From a bacterium (GTDB taxonomy: Bacteria > UBP15 > UBA6099 > DSWB01): DNA of 6,880 nucleotides. The position numbers were made by a program, and so were the translations under genes. The notes beneath the pieces are model-generated. The model was not told where the DNA came from. It ran no database searches and worked only from the letters and a program-made list of their open reading frames with translations. The stretch is taken from the NCBI GenBank assembly GCA_020061125.1, contig JAGUYV010000276.1, positions 1 to 6,880 of the forward strand, read 5' to 3'. Positions 265-6,015 of this stretch are shown here, piece by piece. The first letter of the stretch is position 1, and the number at the start of each line of letters is the position of its first letter.

Positions 265-272
265 AGAAGCTG

Positions 273-353
273 CTTGGAGCCTTCGCCGCCCGAGACAGTG
301 CAACTAAACGCTATTCCGCACAAGGCGCTCCGAGTATGTATGAGCGCCTTTTT
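273..353 (+). promoter_or_regulatory. Putative attenuator in the panB leader: terminator hairpin plus alternative antiterminator pairing
   Basis: The terminator element has a perfect 9-bp stem, AAGGCGCTC (322-330) with GAGCGCCTT (342-350). Its loop is 11 nt, and the T run (349-353) continues from the 3' arm. Only 16 bases separate the T run from the panB start codon, with the Shine-Dalgarno in between, so there is little room for a promoter after the hairpin. An upstream segment, CTTGGAGCCTT (273-283), can pair with 322-334. It forms 7 bp (273-279 with 328-334, one G-U), a 2-nt bulge (326-327) and 4 bp (280-283 with 322-325). That pairing occupies the entire 5' arm of the terminator, so the two structures exclude each other. 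No leader peptide or known riboswitch consensus is recognised. A plain folK terminator is the simpler alternative, but its position against the panB ribosome binding site argues for a role in panB expression. Confidence 0.55.
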
Positions 354-369
354 CATGGGAGGAACCGTT

Positions 370-1230
370 TTGAAAGTAACAGTCAATACGCTCAAGGAAA
401 TGAAGTCCAACGGTGAGAAAATCACCATGCTCACGGCGTACGACTACCAGTTTGCGCGCATCCTGGATGCGGCCGGAGCCGATACCTTGCTCGTGGGCGA
501 TTCCCTGGGCAATGTGATGCTGGGTTACGCCAACACCCTGCCGGTGACCATGGACGAGATGATCCACCACACCAAGGCGGTGGCGCGCGCGGCCAAACGC
601 GCGTTCGTGATCTTCGACATGCCGTTCATGAGCTATCAGGTGTGCGTAGAGGATGCGGTGTTTAACGCGGGCCGCGCGGTCAAGGAGACCGGGGCCGAGT
701 GCGTGAAGCTCGAGGGCGGCGGCCCCCTGGCCGCGGAGGTCACGGCCGCCATCGTGGAGTGCGGCATCCCCGTATGCGCGCATCTGGGCCTCACCCCGCA
801 GTCCGTGAACGCCATGGGCGGATTCGTGGTGCAGGGCAAGGCCCTGGCCAAGGCAAAGGAAATTCTGGATCACGCGCTCATGCTGCAGGCCGCGGGCGCG
901 TGCATGGTGGTGCTCGAAGCCGTGCCTTGGAAGCTGGCCCAGATTCTCACCGAAAAACTCGACATCCCCACCATCGGCATCGGCGCGGGGCCGCACTGCG
1001 ACGGCCAGGTGCTCGTGGTGCACGATATGTTCAACATGTCCGGCCGCGTGCCGCCCAAGTTCGCCAAGGTGTTCGAGGATGTGGAAAAGATCATGACCCG
1101 CGGCGCAAAGAATTATGTCAAGGAAGTCAAAGCCGGAACCTTTCCCGAGACCTCGCACTCGTTCGCCATTGACGACGCGGTGATCGCGAAACTCAAGCCC
1201 GCGTCCAGGAAGAAGGCGGCCAGGAAGTAA
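370..1230 (+). CDS. panB: 3-methyl-2-oxobutanoate hydroxymethyltransferase (ketopantoate hydroxymethyltransferase)
   Basis: This enzyme transfers the one-carbon unit of 5,10-methylene-THF to alpha-ketoisovalerate, the first committed step of pantothenate synthesis in the cytosol. I chose TTG at 370 because GGGAGG (357-362) lies 7 nt upstream and the product then starts KVTVNTLKEMKSNGEKI, the normal family N-terminus. In-frame ATGs at 340 and 355 and an earlier TTG at 274 lack such a site and would add unconserved residues. The 286-residue protein shows LTAYDY (21-26), VGDSLG (42-47, metal-binding D44), FDMPF (82-86, D83), VKLEGG (112-117, K113), AHLGLTPQ (137-144), VLEAVP (181-186, catalytic E183) and IGIGAG. 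These match the Mg- and ketopantoate-binding residues of the (beta/alpha)8 family. It is somewhat longer than the 264-residue E. coli enzyme and ends in a basic tail (SRKKAARK). It overlaps panC by one base (TAATG), which suggests translational coupling. Confidence 0.97.
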   Translation: MKVTVNTLKEMKSNGEKITMLTAYDYQFARILDAAGADTLLVGDSLGNVMLGYANTLPVTMDEMIHHTKAVARAAKRAFVIFDMPFMSYQVCVEDAVFNAGRAVKETGAECVKLEGGGPLAAEVTAAIVECGIPVCAHLGLTPQSVNAMGGFVVQGKALAKAKEILDHALMLQAAGACMVVLEAVPWKLAQILTEKLDIPTIGIGAGPHCDGQVLVVHDMFNMSGRVPPKFAKVFEDVEKIMTRGAKNYVKEVKAGTFPETSHSFAIDDAVIAKLKPASRKKAARK

Positions 1231-2075
1231 TGCAGGTCATCGAGACGCCGCAAGCCATGCAGGACTTCGCCCGCGACGCGCGCGCGCAGGGCCGCTCCAT
1301 CGGCCTCGTTCCCACCATGGGCTACTTCCACGAGGGGCACCTGTCCCTCATGCGCGCCAGCGCCGCGGAAAACGACATCACCATAACATCCCTGTTCGTG
1401 AACCCCACGCAATTCGGCGCGCACGAGGATCTGGACAAGTATCCGCGCGATGTGGAGCGGGACTGCGACCTGGCCCGGGGCGCGGGCGTGGATATCATGT
1501 TCACCCCAACCAACGAAATGATGTACCCGCCCGGATACCGCACCTACATCCGGGTCGAGGAGTGGAGCGACATGCTCTGCGGGGTCACTCGGCCCATCCA
1601 CTTCCGGGGCGTGGCCACGGTGTGCTGCAAGCTGTTTAACATCTGCATTCCCCGCCGCGCGTACTTCGGCCTCAAGGATGCGCAGCAGTGCCTCATCATC
1701 AAAAAAATGGTCGAGGACCTGAATCTGGATGTGGAAATAAAGCCCATGCCCCTGGTGCGCGAGGCCGACGGCCTTGCCATGAGCTCGCGCAATGTATATC
1801 TGTCCGAAGCCGAGCGCCGGGACGCGCTGCGCATCAGCCAGGCGCTGTTCATGGCGCGGGACATGATCGCCGCGGGCGAGACCTCGGCCGCAGCAATCCG
1901 CGGGGCCATGCGCGATCACATCGAACAATCGCCCCTGGCGAAAATAGATTACATCGAGACCGTGGACAGCCGCACCCTGGCGTCCGCGGACACCGTAAAA
2001 CCGGGCGTTCTCATCGCCGCGGCCGTGTTCTTCGGCCCCACGCGGCTGATTGACAATATTATCGTTGAAGGTTGA
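1230..2075 (+). CDS. panC: Pantothenate synthetase (pantoate--beta-alanine ligase)
   Basis: This 281-residue enzyme condenses pantoate with beta-alanine using ATP through a pantoyl-adenylate. The length matches the family (283 in E. coli). Nucleotidyltransferase signatures are in order: VPTMG (27-31), HEGH of the HIGH motif (34-37), LFVNPTQF (55-62), then IHFRGVATV (123-131) of the pantoate/ATP pocket. FGLKDAQQ (146-153) and MSSRN (184-188), the KMSKS-like loop, follow. The C-terminal part (LAKIDYIETVDSRTL) is the dimerisation and lid domain. The ATG overlaps the panB stop by one base, with AGGA only 4 nt upstream, so translation is probably coupled to panB. The substrate beta-alanine comes from PanD encoded next. 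Confidence 0.97.
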   Translation: MQVIETPQAMQDFARDARAQGRSIGLVPTMGYFHEGHLSLMRASAAENDITITSLFVNPTQFGAHEDLDKYPRDVERDCDLARGAGVDIMFTPTNEMMYPPGYRTYIRVEEWSDMLCGVTRPIHFRGVATVCCKLFNICIPRRAYFGLKDAQQCLIIKKMVEDLNLDVEIKPMPLVREADGLAMSSRNVYLSEAERRDALRISQALFMARDMIAAGETSAAAIRGAMRDHIEQSPLAKIDYIETVDSRTLASADTVKPGVLIAAAVFFGPTRLIDNIIVEG

Positions 2076-2117
2076 ACCGCTTTTTATTATGACAAAAGAA
2101 TCAGTAAGGGGGACCTG

Positions 2118-2525
2118 ATGATCAGGCACTTCTGCAAAGCAAAGATTCACCGGGCCACAATCACCGAGGCCAACCTGGATTACATGGGGAGCATCACCAT
2201 ATCCACGGAGCTGATGGAAGCGGCGAACCTGTACCCGTACGAAAAGGTGCAGGTGGTGGACATAGACAACGGAGCGCGCCTGGAGACCTATGTGATCCCC
2301 GGCGAGCGCCGGGCCGGCGAAATCTGCCTCAACGGCGCGGCCGCGCGCCTTGTCCACAAGGGCGACCGGGTCATCATCATTTCCTACTGCATGCTCGACG
2401 AAAAGGAAATCCAGGGCTTCCGCCCGCGCGTGGTGTTCGTGGACGAGGCCAACAAAATCACGGAGATCAAGGACCACGAGATCGCGTTCGCCACGCACCT
2501 GCAGGTGGTGTCCGAGGCGCGCTGA
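2118..2525 (+). CDS. panD: Aspartate 1-decarboxylase (pyruvoyl-dependent)
   Basis: PanD decarboxylates L-aspartate to beta-alanine for PanC. The proenzyme self-cleaves at Gly-Ser, and the serine becomes the pyruvoyl cofactor. Here YMGS places the cleavage at G24-S25, the family position. Other conserved residues are K9 in KAKIHR, R54, Y58 in ETYVI, and NGAAA (72-76), which forms part of the active site between subunits. The 135-residue product is slightly longer than the 126 of E. coli through a C-terminal extension after the [13 protein letters not shown] segment. AAGGGGG (2106-2112) lies 5 nt before the ATG, a strong ribosome binding site. It follows panC after a 42-nt gap that holds no convincing terminator, so it is probably cotranscribed with panB and panC. 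Confidence 0.96.
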
Positions 2526-2534
2526 CCCCCGCGT

Positions 2535-2563
2535 TTGACTTTCTCCAGACCCCGGGTTATCCT
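2535..2563 (+). promoter_or_regulatory. Sigma-70-like promoter upstream of nadA
   Basis: TTGACT (2535-2540, 5 of 6 consensus) and TATCCT (2558-2563, 4 of 6) are separated by the optimal 17 bp. They lie in the 92-bp spacer between panD and nadA, which is less GC-rich in its downstream half than the flanking genes. The expected start near 2570 gives a leader of about 48 nt to the nadA ATG. There is no terminator between panD and this site, so read-through from panBCD is still possible. This promoter would make the NAD genes and coaX a separately controllable unit. Confidence 0.55.
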
Positions 2564-2617
2564 GTCATACAGTTGATATCTGGTACCATTTTACCGCTTT
2601 AGCGCCGAGGATTCGCA

Positions 2618-3520
2618 ATGACCACACAGGAAACCGCAGAAAAAATTCAGCGCCTCAAACAGGAACGCAACGCCGTGATTCTGGCCCACAATTACCAGAT
2701 CCCGGAAGTGCAGGACATCGCCGACCACACCGGGGACTCCCTGGAGCTGGCCCGCATCGCCTCCAAAACCGATTACGATGTGATCGTGTTCTGCGGCGTG
2801 ATGTTCATGGCCGAAACCGCCAACATTCTTTGCCCGCAGAAAACCACGCTTATCCCCGACCCCAAAGCCGGGTGCCCGCTCGCGGATATGATTGACCTCA
2901 AGAAGCTGCAGAAGCTCCAGGCCCAGCACCCGGACGCGGTCACGGTCTGCTATGTGAACTCCAGTGCAGAGGTCAAGGCCCACAGTGATGTGGTGTGCAC
3001 ATCGGCCAACGCGGTCAAGATTGTGGCCTCCATTGACAAGCCCATCATCTTCGTCCCCGACAGGCACCTGGGCGATTACGCCGCGAAAAAGACCGGCCGC
3101 GAAATCATCCTCGGCCCGGGCTGGTGCCCCACGCACTACAACATTGACCCCGACGACATCAGGGATCTCAAGAACAAATACCCGGACGCCGAAGTTGTGG
3201 TGCATCCCGAGTGCACGCGCGAAATTCTGGCCCTGGCCGACCACATCTGCAGCACCTCGCAGATGATCCGCGCCGTGGCCGCTTCCAGCGCGCCGCGCTT
3301 CATCATCGGCACCGAGCAGGGCCTTCTGCACAGGCTCAAAAAGGATAACCCGGACAAGGAATTCCTCACCCCCGGCCCGTGCCTGTGCCCGAACATGAAA
3401 AAAATTACGCTGGACAAAGTTCTGCGGTCCCTCGAGACCATGGAACACAAAGTGGTGGTGCCCGAGCCGGTTCGCACGCAGGCGCTCACCGCGCTGGAGA
3501 GAATGCTCGAATATGTCTGA
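2618..3520 (+). CDS. nadA: Quinolinate synthase (4Fe-4S, NadA)
   Basis: NadA condenses iminoaspartate with dihydroxyacetone phosphate to quinolinate in de novo NAD synthesis; it needs an oxygen-sensitive [4Fe-4S] cluster. The 300-residue product belongs to the compact form of the family, like the Thermotoga and archaeal enzymes, and lacks the N-terminal extension of the E. coli enzyme. Visible features are AHNYQ (23-27), DSLELA (40-45), FCGVMFMAETA (58-68), CYVNSSAEVKA (111-121), CTSANA (127-132), PDRHLG (147-152), HPEC (196-199) and GTEQGL (231-236). The three expected cluster ligands are C86 in AGCPLAD, C170 in GPGWCPTH and C257 in CPNMKK. GAGGA (2607-2611) lies 6 nt before the ATG. The 3' end overlaps nadX by 8 bases, so the iminoaspartate producer and consumer are translated together. 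Confidence 0.98.
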   Translation: MTTQETAEKIQRLKQERNAVILAHNYQIPEVQDIADHTGDSLELARIASKTDYDVIVFCGVMFMAETANILCPQKTTLIPDPKAGCPLADMIDLKKLQKLQAQHPDAVTVCYVNSSAEVKAHSDVVCTSANAVKIVASIDKPIIFVPDRHLGDYAAKKTGREIILGPGWCPTHYNIDPDDIRDLKNKYPDAEVVVHPECTREILALADHICSTSQMIRAVAASSAPRFIIGTEQGLLHRLKKDNPDKEFLTPGPCLCPNMKKITLDKVLRSLETMEHKVVVPEPVRTQALTALERMLEYV

Positions 3521-4325
3521 ACACACACTGAAAAAAGTCGGCTTGATCGGCTGCGGCGCCATCGGCACGCGCATCGCAAGAGCCATTGACACCGGGGAAC
3601 TCAAGGCCGCGCTCGCGGGCGTGTGCGACATTGATCCGCAACGCGCGCGCACCCTGTCCGAGTCTCTGAACGGCAAACCGCCCATCATGAGCGCCGCGCA
3701 GATCGTGGACGCCGCGGACATCGTGGTCGAGGCCGCTCATGTGTCCGCGGTCCCGGAAGCCGTGGACCTGTGCATCGAAAAGGGCAAAGACCTCATGGTC
3801 ATGAGCGTGGGCGGGCTGACCCCGGAGCACTTCGAACGCTTCGAGAACAGCGCCGTGAACCTGTACATGCCATCGGGCGCGGTGTGCGGGCTGGACGGCG
3901 TGCTCGCCTCCAACCTCGAACACATTGACACCGTGACCCTCACCACGCGCAAGCCCCCGGCCGGACTCAAGGACGCCCCCTTCATCGTTCAGAACAACAT
4001 TGACCTCGACAGCCTCACCGCTGAAAAAACCGTGTTTGAAGGCTCGCCCGCGCAGGCCATCAAGGGCTTCCCCAAGAACATCAATGTGGCCACCACCCTT
4101 TACAACGCAGCGAATGTGGACGGCAAGTTCCGCGTGCGCATCGTGGCCGACCCGGCCGTGCACAGCAACATCCACGAAATCAATTTGAGCGGCGCGCTCG
4201 GCAGCATCCGCATCACCGTGGAGAATGTGCCCTCGCCGGACAACCCGCGCACCAGCGCCCTGGCTTACTACTCGGCCATCGCCACGCTGCGCAAAATCCT
4301 GTCCCATGTGAAAATCGGCACCTAA
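3513..4325 (+). CDS. nadX: L-aspartate dehydrogenase (NadX), iminoaspartate-forming
   Basis: NadX oxidises L-aspartate to iminoaspartate with NAD(P)+, supplying NadA without oxygen or fumarate. In this cluster it takes the place of the flavoprotein NadB. The 270-residue protein has an N-terminal Rossmann fold with VGLIGCGAIG (9-18, GxGxxG) and an acidic residue after strand 2 (CDID, 38-41). It then has the family blocks PSGAVCGLDG (120-129), TRKPP (145-149), GFPKNINVA (185-193) and DPAVHSNIHEI (213-223), with H221 as the likely catalytic histidine. GGAGAG (3496-3501), inside the end of nadA, lies 11 nt before the ATG. The overlap with nadA and the nadC gene downstream identify it as the NAD-pathway enzyme rather than another Rossmann dehydrogenase. 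No NadB-like gene is seen in the window. Confidence 0.94.
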   Translation: MSEHTLKKVGLIGCGAIGTRIARAIDTGELKAALAGVCDIDPQRARTLSESLNGKPPIMSAAQIVDAADIVVEAAHVSAVPEAVDLCIEKGKDLMVMSVGGLTPEHFERFENSAVNLYMPSGAVCGLDGVLASNLEHIDTVTLTTRKPPAGLKDAPFIVQNNIDLDSLTAEKTVFEGSPAQAIKGFPKNINVATTLYNAANVDGKFRVRIVADPAVHSNIHEINLSGALGSIRITVENVPSPDNPRTSALAYYSAIATLRKILSHVKIGT

Positions 4326-4329
4326 GACC

Positions 4330-4358
4330 CGGCGCGGTGGATCCCCGGCGCCGCGCCG
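4330..4358 (+). other. Strong GC-rich hairpin between nadX and nadC, no T tract
   Basis: CGGCGCGG (4330-4337) pairs perfectly with CCGCGCCG (4351-4358). A T-G wobble (4338/4350) and G-C (4339/4349) extend the stem to 10 bp around a 9-nt loop. It begins 4 nt after the nadX stop and ends 22 nt before the nadC ATG. Only two Ts follow, so it is not a canonical intrinsic terminator. It could protect the nadA-nadX message 3' end, mark a processing site, or lower nadC expression. The nadC ribosome binding site is weak: GGAG (4364-4367) lies 13 nt from the start. Confidence 0.5.
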
Positions 4359-4380
4359 TTCCCGGAGTCGCACACCCGCC

Positions 4381-5226
4381 ATGAATACTCTCCAACCCGA
4401 ACACTACACGGACCTCGTGAAACGCGCCCTGGCCGAAGACATCGGCGGCGGCGACATTTCCACGCAATGCCTGAACCTGGGCGATCGCCGCGCACGCGCC
4501 GTGCTCAAGGCCAAGGACAACGGCATCCTCGCGGGCCGCGATGTGGCCGCCGCATGCTTCCGCGAACTCGACCCGGACGCAGCCATCGAATTCAAAATCG
4601 AGGACGGCGCACGCCTGCGCGACGGCGATGTGATTATGGAAATCACGGGCCGCGCGGACGCGCTCCTCTCCGCCGAGCGCACGGCCCTCAACTTTCTCCA
4701 ACGCTTGAGCGGCATCGCCAAATACACCTTTCTGATGACCCAGCAGGTCTACGGCCTCAAGTCGAAAATCTACGACACGCGAAAAACCACGCCCGGCATG
4801 CGCATGCTCGAAAAATACGCCGTGCTCATGGGCGGCGGCACAAACCACCGCATCGGCCTGTTCGACCAGGTGTTGCTCAAAGACAACCACATCCTGCTCG
4901 CGGGCGGCGTGGCCAACGCCGTGAACGCGGCCAGAAAGAGCCTCGGCAAAGACGCATTCGTGGAAGTGGAAGTCGAAACCATGGACCAGGTGCGCGAAGC
5001 CCTGGACGCGGGCGCGAACCGCATCATGCTCGACAACATGAGCTTTCTCGAAATCGAGGAAGCCGTGAAGCACATAGACGGCCGGGCCGAGGTCGAGGTG
5101 TCCGGCGGCGTCACCCTGCTCACCGTCGGAACCATCGCGGATATGAATGTGGATGTCATTTCCGTGGGCGCCATCACGCACTCCGCGGACGCCCTGGACA
5201 TCAGCATGGATTTTCAGCCGGAATGA
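4381..5226 (+). CDS. nadC: Nicotinate-nucleotide pyrophosphorylase (quinolinate phosphoribosyltransferase, carboxylating)
   Basis: NadC converts quinolinate and PRPP to nicotinate mononucleotide, CO2 and PPi, completing the aspartate-to-NaMN route begun by NadX and NadA. The 281-residue length is typical. The N-terminal sandwich domain begins with LAEDIGGGDIST (17-28). The barrel carries ERTALNFLQRLSGIA (99-113), DTRKTTPG (132-139), K145, GGGTNHRIGLFD (151-162) and LLKDNH (165-170), the quinolinate- and phosphate-binding residues. EVEVE, MLDNMS and VSGG.TLL follow toward the C-terminus. The ATG lies 55 nt after nadX behind a GC hairpin. The nearest Shine-Dalgarno-like GGAG is distant (13 nt), so initiation may be weaker than for its neighbours. 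Confidence 0.98.
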   Translation: MNTLQPEHYTDLVKRALAEDIGGGDISTQCLNLGDRRARAVLKAKDNGILAGRDVAAACFRELDPDAAIEFKIEDGARLRDGDVIMEITGRADALLSAERTALNFLQRLSGIAKYTFLMTQQVYGLKSKIYDTRKTTPGMRMLEKYAVLMGGGTNHRIGLFDQVLLKDNHILLAGGVANAVNAARKSLGKDAFVEVEVETMDQVREALDAGANRIMLDNMSFLEIEEAVKHIDGRAEVEVSGGVTLLTVGTIADMNVDVISVGAITHSADALDISMDFQPE

Positions 5227-5244
5227 ACCCCTCGGGAGACCCCT

Positions 5245-6015
5245 ATGCTACTGGCCATTGATGTCGGCAACACCAACATCGTGCTCGGCGTGTTCGAGGA
5301 CGAAAACCTGCGCACGCACTTCCGGCTCTCCACCTCGCGCCAGCGCACCGTGGATGAATACGGGCTGCAGATCATCGCCCTGCTGCGCACCCAGAACATC
5401 CGCCCCGCCGACATCCACGATGTGATCATTTCCACCGTGGTCCCGCCCATCACCGACACCCTGGCCGAGACCTCCCGCAAATACTTTAACGCCGAAGCCC
5501 TGTTCGTGGACCCCGGCGTGAAGATCGGCATCAACATCAAATACGAAAACCCCAAGGAAGTGGGCGCGGACCGCATCGTGAACGCCGTGGCCGCCATGGC
5601 CGTGTACGGCGGCCCCGTCATTGTGGTGGACTTCGGCACCGCCACAACCTTCTGCGCCATCAACGACAGGGCCGAATATCTGGGCGGCGCCATCGCGCCG
5701 GGCGTGGGCATCTCCATGGAAGCCCTGTTCCGCGCAGCCGCCAAGCTGCCCCGCGTGCAGTTCAAGCGCCCGGCGCGCATCATCGGCAAGAACACCGTCG
5801 AGTCCATGCAGTCCGGCATGTTCTACGGGTTCGTGTCCCAGGTGGACGGCATCGTCACGCGCATGAAGGCCGAACTCGGGGAAGACGCAAAAGTTGTGGC
5901 CACCGGCGGCATCGCGCCCCTCATCGCACCGGATTCCCAGACCATTGACCATGTGTCCCCGCTGCTTACCCTCGAGGGGTTGCGCCTCATTTACGAAAAA
6001 AACCGCACGCCGTAA
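5245..6015 (+). CDS. coaX: Type III pantothenate kinase (CoaX)
   Basis: CoaX phosphorylates pantothenate to 4'-phosphopantothenate, the entry step to CoA. The type III form belongs to the ASKHA fold and is generally insensitive to CoA feedback. The 256-residue protein shows the phosphate-binding motif DVGNTN (6-11, D6), then EYG (38-40) and VGADRIVNA (106-114), part of the pantothenate site. VVDFGTATTF (127-136, with D129 in the monovalent-cation/catalytic region), GGAIAPGVGIS (147-157) and ATGGIAP near the C-terminus follow. GGGAG (5234-5238) lies 6 nt before the ATG. It follows nadC after only 18 nt, so it belongs to the nadA-nadX-nadC unit although its substrate is made by the panBCD products upstream. 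Confidence 0.97.
   Translation: MLLAIDVGNTNIVLGVFEDENLRTHFRLSTSRQRTVDEYGLQIIALLRTQNIRPADIHDVIISTVVPPITDTLAETSRKYFNAEALFVDPGVKIGINIKYENPKEVGADRIVNAVAAMAVYGGPVIVVDFGTATTFCAINDRAEYLGGAIAPGVGISMEALFRAAAKLPRVQFKRPARIIGKNTVESMQSGMFYGFVSQVDGIVTRMKAELGEDAKVVATGGIAPLIAPDSQTIDHVSPLLTLEGLRLIYEKNRTP

Follow-up and report, generated by a model that had tools for sequence, protein, structure and literature searches.

A single pan-motif hairpin in a candidate transcription-attenuation leader before panB in a small bacterial phylum

The leader before panB in the window (the whole stretch of DNA analyzed, 6,880 nt) belongs to an RNA element family that is already known, the pan motif (RF01749). It consists of one unit only, comes from a small phylum, is missed by Rfam and has a predicted strand-swapped antiterminator. 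Positions 270–353 of the forward strand probably act as a transcription-attenuation leader built on this one hairpin, in which closure of the hairpin by an effector would allow the downstream terminator to form and turn the operon down. A pan leader in this position is most likely a feedback switch on the synthesis of vitamin B5 and coenzyme A (CoA). Predicted attenuation at 270–353 is well supported computationally: the mutually exclusive pairings on which the initial annotation had based its attenuator were recovered, and two further families of the phylum share the design.

The window begins inside the 3′ end of folK (stop codon 231–233), and all following genes are on the forward strand. 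panB (ketopantoate hydroxymethyltransferase, 370–1230; Pfam PF02548, E = 2.9e-112) starts with TTG at 370–372, which is aligned with the panB ATG of relatives, and is preceded at a distance of 7 nt by the Shine-Dalgarno sequence GGGAGG (357–362). Both elements, read directly from the sequence, are where the initial annotation had placed them. The likely remainder of the operon (1230–6015, assigned with Pfam) comprises panC, panD, nadA, aspartate dehydrogenase (nadX), nadC and type III pantothenate kinase (coaX), such that genes for pantothenate (panB, panC, panD), NAD (nadA, aspartate dehydrogenase, nadC) and CoA (coaX) form one same-strand run from 370 to 6015. As the pantothenate and NAD pathways both draw on aspartate, the leader may control NAD synthesis too. 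By direct reading, a possible but weak promoter, TTGAAT–17 nt–TAGGAT (4/6 and 4/6 matches), overlaps the folK stop codon at 230–258 on the forward strand and falls below the threshold of the promoter scan (9/12); a transcript from it would begin a few bases 5′ of the pan hairpin. An open reading frame in frame with panB from 274 was considered and set aside: it runs to panB without a stop, so that a leader peptide is not evident, and TTG 370 with GGGAGG suits the relatives better.

An intrinsic terminator is predicted at 322–353 (forward strand), consisting of a perfect 9-bp stem, AAGGCGCTC (322–330) with GAGCGCCTT (342–350), an 11-nt loop and a T run at 349–353; direct reading confirmed the stem and T run of the initial annotation base for base. 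The U tract is short, with 5 T, 2 of them inside the stem. The program's terminator scan did not list this hairpin because it allows only loops of 3–8 nt. Neither strand of the window has another T-run hairpin with a perfect stem of 8 bp or more and a loop of at most 12 nt. Dinucleotide shuffling of the window (100 shuffles, both strands searched) never produced one, nor did any of 3000 shuffles of 234–369. Folding of 255–375 was ordinary overall (z = −0.98), and the evidence is therefore position and conservation, not global folding energy. The placement is that of a terminator-type attenuator, with an intrinsic terminator between the promoter, here weak and unproved, and the first gene.

As judged by its sequence and pairing plan, 270–298 (forward strand) is a pan-motif (RF01749-type) hairpin, corresponding to the second unit only and standing without its first partner. 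Described by Weinberg et al. (2010; PMC2864571), the pan motif is a cis-regulatory orphan RNA associated with pantothenate operons. Its stem carries two bulged As, both conserved, and the element lies upstream of panB, panC or panD, mostly in tandem (PMC2864571). The hairpin in the window has the exact 3 + 5 + 2 bp plan, CUG-CUUGG-(A)-GC...GC-CCGAG-(A)-CAG, in which 270–272 pair with 296–298, 273–277 with 290–294 and 279–280 with 288–289, leaving A278 and A295 bulged and a loop at 281–287; its predicted energy is −9.9 kcal/mol. It carries the second-unit sequence GCUUGGA..CCGAGAC (alignment A2 and leave-out covariance model) and stands 71 nt before panB-panC-panD. Like tandem pan leaders, it is followed by a terminator; unlike them, it comprises one unit instead of two, has CUG/CAG in place of CCG/CGG at the bottom of the stem, and scores below the Rfam cut-off. 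No second pan unit was present in the 120 nt upstream of 270. Tandem arrangement is not a strict criterion for RF01749, since the source ascribes it to "most" members (PMC2864571). Rfam scans of the window and of the leader gave no match at any useful score. The gathering score of RF01749 (36.2 bits) was not reached in the window or in any leader of the phylum, with scores of 26–29 bits in genomes G003, G005 and G006; these low scores are explained by a single hairpin being half of the 92-nt tandem model of Rfam.

The analysis covered 7 genomes of the phylum, 5 of which, including the window's own, contained panB with upstream DNA; in the remaining 2, panB was cut by the contig end or was not found. 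One strong pan site per genome, only before panB, was present in 5 of the 7. All four relatives with upstream DNA have the hairpin before panB and then a terminator, and folK lies upstream of panB in relatives too. Beyond CTGCTTGGAGC(n)GCCCGAGACAG, located 69–107 nt before panB, and the later terminator, leaders of different families in the phylum share little. A strict scan for two bulged As detected the hairpin in the window and at loci L083 and L084–L086 (background 0.028 per 600 nt); because L084–L086 are near-identical, the evidence within the phylum amounts to three lineages.

A covariance model (R2) was built from pan units of other phyla only, with the window's phylum left out. Over the whole 4.1-Mb assembly, 270–298 ranked first (23 bits, E = 5.8e-4), ahead of a second-best site at 14.8 bits. 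Run without filters, R2 placed the hairpins of L083 and L084–L086 at the top of each locus (20–21 bits); they were not listed in its genome-wide search with a loose first look. A second model (R1), which includes the window's clade, gave exactly one strong site in each of the 5 genomes, always before panB, at 32–36 bits, these sequences being part of the model. At E < 1e-5, R1 matched 28 of 86 panB loci in Bacillota, Chloroflexota, Syntrophales and others. The initial annotation, recognizing no known riboswitch, had proposed an undescribed panB leader element, and the Rfam result alone would have suggested the same, given the lack of a useful match to the leader and of any leader in the phylum above the RF01749 cut-off. 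A wholly undescribed element is nevertheless barely credible: the second RF01749 unit has the same plan, sequence, pair of bulged As and gene context, the model without the window's phylum still matches 270–298, and the upstream arm of the proposed switch proves to be the 5′ strand of the pan hairpin.

Conservation, which the initial annotation had named as the check on both helices, held for the pan hairpin, where both-side changes were found in 3 of 10 pairs and slid controls lost pairing. Two of these three changes separate the window's phylum from the others: CUG/CAG replaces CCG/CGG, and G-C replaces U-A beside the bulge. The terminator keeps its place but not its sequence, and the antiterminator bases differ by family. 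The 273–283 pairing was therefore dropped as a conserved helix for covariation testing, since relatives use other bases; with the pairing rebuilt from different bases in each family, the antiterminator cannot show classical covariation.

Pelotomaculum (L021) has a full tandem pan RNA, with an RF01749 score of 57.9 bits and CCGCTTGGAGCCGGGACGGACCGAGACGG as its second hairpin. The hairpin in the window is almost identical to the second hairpin, CCGCTTGGAGCC..GGACCGAGACGG, of tandem pan RNAs that Rfam detects. Of 113 genomes in the class of Pelotomaculum, 98 exceed the RF01749 cut-off; within this class (L094–L132), nearly every terminator downstream of a tandem pan RNA starts with (G)CCTTTCGG, which is complementary to the CCGAGA of the second hairpin. 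Besides those of the phylum (L083–L086), single pan units were found at L020, L032, L042, L043, L060, L061 and L074, which are single hairpins with a terminator from Syntrophales and related Deltaproteobacteria; the subset scored with RF01749 fell below its cut-off. By a simple rule, an intrinsic terminator follows the hairpin after 6–36 nt in 55 of 57 leaders; in the two exceptions (L025 and L063) the stem is present and the T run poor.

These comparisons bear on two other accounts of the region. If 322–353 were a plain folK terminator, with panB transcribed from a promoter elsewhere and unregulated, its position about 90 nt downstream of the end of folK (233) and the presence of folK upstream of panB in relatives would be accounted for. 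This is improbable: there is little space for a promoter in 354–370, and the same hairpin-terminator pair heads pan operons of Bacillota, Chloroflexota and Syntrophales that start with other genes, some of them with a DUF2520/Rossmann-like reductase or a Peptidase_S58 protein, which ties the terminator to the pan hairpin and not just to the end of folK. Control at the level of translation, in which the leader would govern access to GGGAGG instead of termination, finds a parallel in L102 and L103 (= places L010 and L011; Lachnospiraceae-like), where the ribosome-binding site of panB is immediately preceded by one first-unit-type hairpin, TGGACGGTACCC..GGGACTGTACCA, and no terminator is present, an arrangement that suggests translation control in these Clostridia. 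For the window it is very improbable, as a strong stem and T run lie between the hairpin and the ribosome site, and the latter is outside the contest between pan hairpin and terminator.

In attenuation, the contest would be for one strand of the hairpin. The candidate antiterminator strand, 273–283 (CTTGGAGCCTT; forward strand), comprises the 5′ strand of the pan hairpin and 3 nt of its loop, and the shared arm, 322–334 (AAGGCGCTCCGAG; forward strand), comprises the terminator 5′ arm (322–330) and the start of the terminator loop. The two can form 11 bp, one of them G-U, with a 2-nt bulge, exactly as initially described. The predicted duplex (−17.1 kcal/mol) is stronger than the pan hairpin. 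When the terminator 5′ arm and loop were shuffled 20,000 times, 54 of the shuffles (0.3%) paired as strongly, as did 0.5% of 20-mers from the window. In a transcript cut before the terminator 3′ arm, the predicted fold in the window is the antiterminator, and the predicted probability of the pan hairpin was 0.00 in the window, 0.60 in L083 and 0.42 in L084, rising to 0.87, 1.00 and 0.99, respectively, in the full leader. The fractions of shuffled terminators doing as well were 0.030, 0.015 and 0.050 for the window, L083 and L084. The pairing of 273–283 with 322–334 was itself not found in the relatives, which pair through other bases: ACAGGAAG/CUUCCUGU in L083, and GAGA/UCUC, GGAA/UUCC and CAUCAA/UUGAUG in L084. 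That three families each arrive at this predicted contest through bases of their own is the strongest evidence for selection; across all 55 leaders, support for an exclusive antiterminator is weak.

Among the 55 leaders, complementarity of the hairpin 3′ strand to the terminator 5′ arm exceeded that in shuffles (median p = 0.12), most clearly in Chloroflexota, where CCGAGA faces UCUCGG, and the 5′ strand was not enriched (median p = 0.55). The window, which had been chosen for its pairing, was the sole leader with a striking 5′-strand match (p = 0.002); its antiterminator thus differs from those of other pan leaders, which favor the 3′ strand or have no clear pairing. An equilibrium-fold test of switching over the 55 leaders was weak (median q = 0.34; 11 of 55 at ≤0.1), and switching is for this reason not claimed as proven for all pan RNAs.

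The proposed sequence of events is as follows. With polymerase at 334–341, the terminator 5′ arm would take over the 5′ strand of the pan hairpin (273–283 with 322–334), and this antiterminator would block the terminator so that the operon is read. An effector signaling plentiful pantothenate or CoA would hold the pan hairpin closed, leaving 322–330 free for 342–350; transcription would then stop at about 353, before panB, and panB-panC-panD-nadA-nadX-nadC-coaX would be turned down. With no effector present, the full leader already has its predicted minimum at pan hairpin plus terminator (−27.6 versus −19.6), and the ON state would hence need folding during transcription. Because the closed pan hairpin goes with the formed terminator, an effector that stabilizes the hairpin should lower expression, which is the usual direction of feedback for a biosynthetic operon. 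It is unlikely that the sign is the opposite or the route another one, with a protein or ligand on the pan hairpin favoring read-through and the 273–283/322–334 pairing incidental. The weak fold test over 55 leaders and the use of other pairings by relatives speak for such a route; against it, in each of the phylum's three families an alternative pairing is predicted to open the pan hairpin while the terminator is still incomplete, and 3′-strand complementarity is enriched over shuffles.

In protein-binding attenuators of the PyrR, TRAP and BglG type, a protein on a small hairpin or repeat decides between antiterminator and terminator, and the pan leader resembles them in having a small hairpin as candidate recognition site upstream of such a choice. 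We know of no protein that binds pan RNA. As pan effector, a protein is favored over a metabolite by the shortness of the stem and the lack of conservation in the loop. With metabolite-sensing OFF riboswitches that act through a terminator, the leader shares an upstream structured element and an exclusive antiterminator/terminator pair; unlike known aptamers, the pan hairpin measures only 29 nt (10 bp) and its loop is unconserved. No CoA riboswitch was known as of 2022 (PMC9971707). It is distinctly unlikely that the single pan hairpin itself senses pantothenate, a CoA-pathway intermediate or CoA, and so would be the missing CoA-pathway riboswitch class in minimal form. For tandem pan RNAs, a dimeric protein-binding motif was suggested (Weinberg et al., 2010; PMC2864571), whereas the single unit in the window would not provide two sites on one RNA. 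The accessible literature names no effector or ligand for pan RNA since 2010. The pan motif is recorded before panB in transcriptomes of Bacillus methanolicus (PMC4342826) and Paenibacillus riograndensis (PMC5670726), and the accessible portions of these two papers report no test of it.

Since the Rfam tandem model overlooks single-unit pan RNAs, which a half-unit model detects at the panB loci of several groups, pan regulation is more widespread than the tandem model suggests. A one-hairpin pan RNA with a clear terminator and a competing pairing is the simplest form to test, and shows which strand would be freed or held, at exact positions. In Dehalococcoidia-type pan operons (L054, 704–1711; L078, 311–1288; L069, 509–1477), Peptidase_S58 (DmpA-type) comes first after the leader, followed by the DUF2520/Rossmann-like reductase, a pair that may be linked to the supply of beta-alanine and the reduction of ketopantoate.
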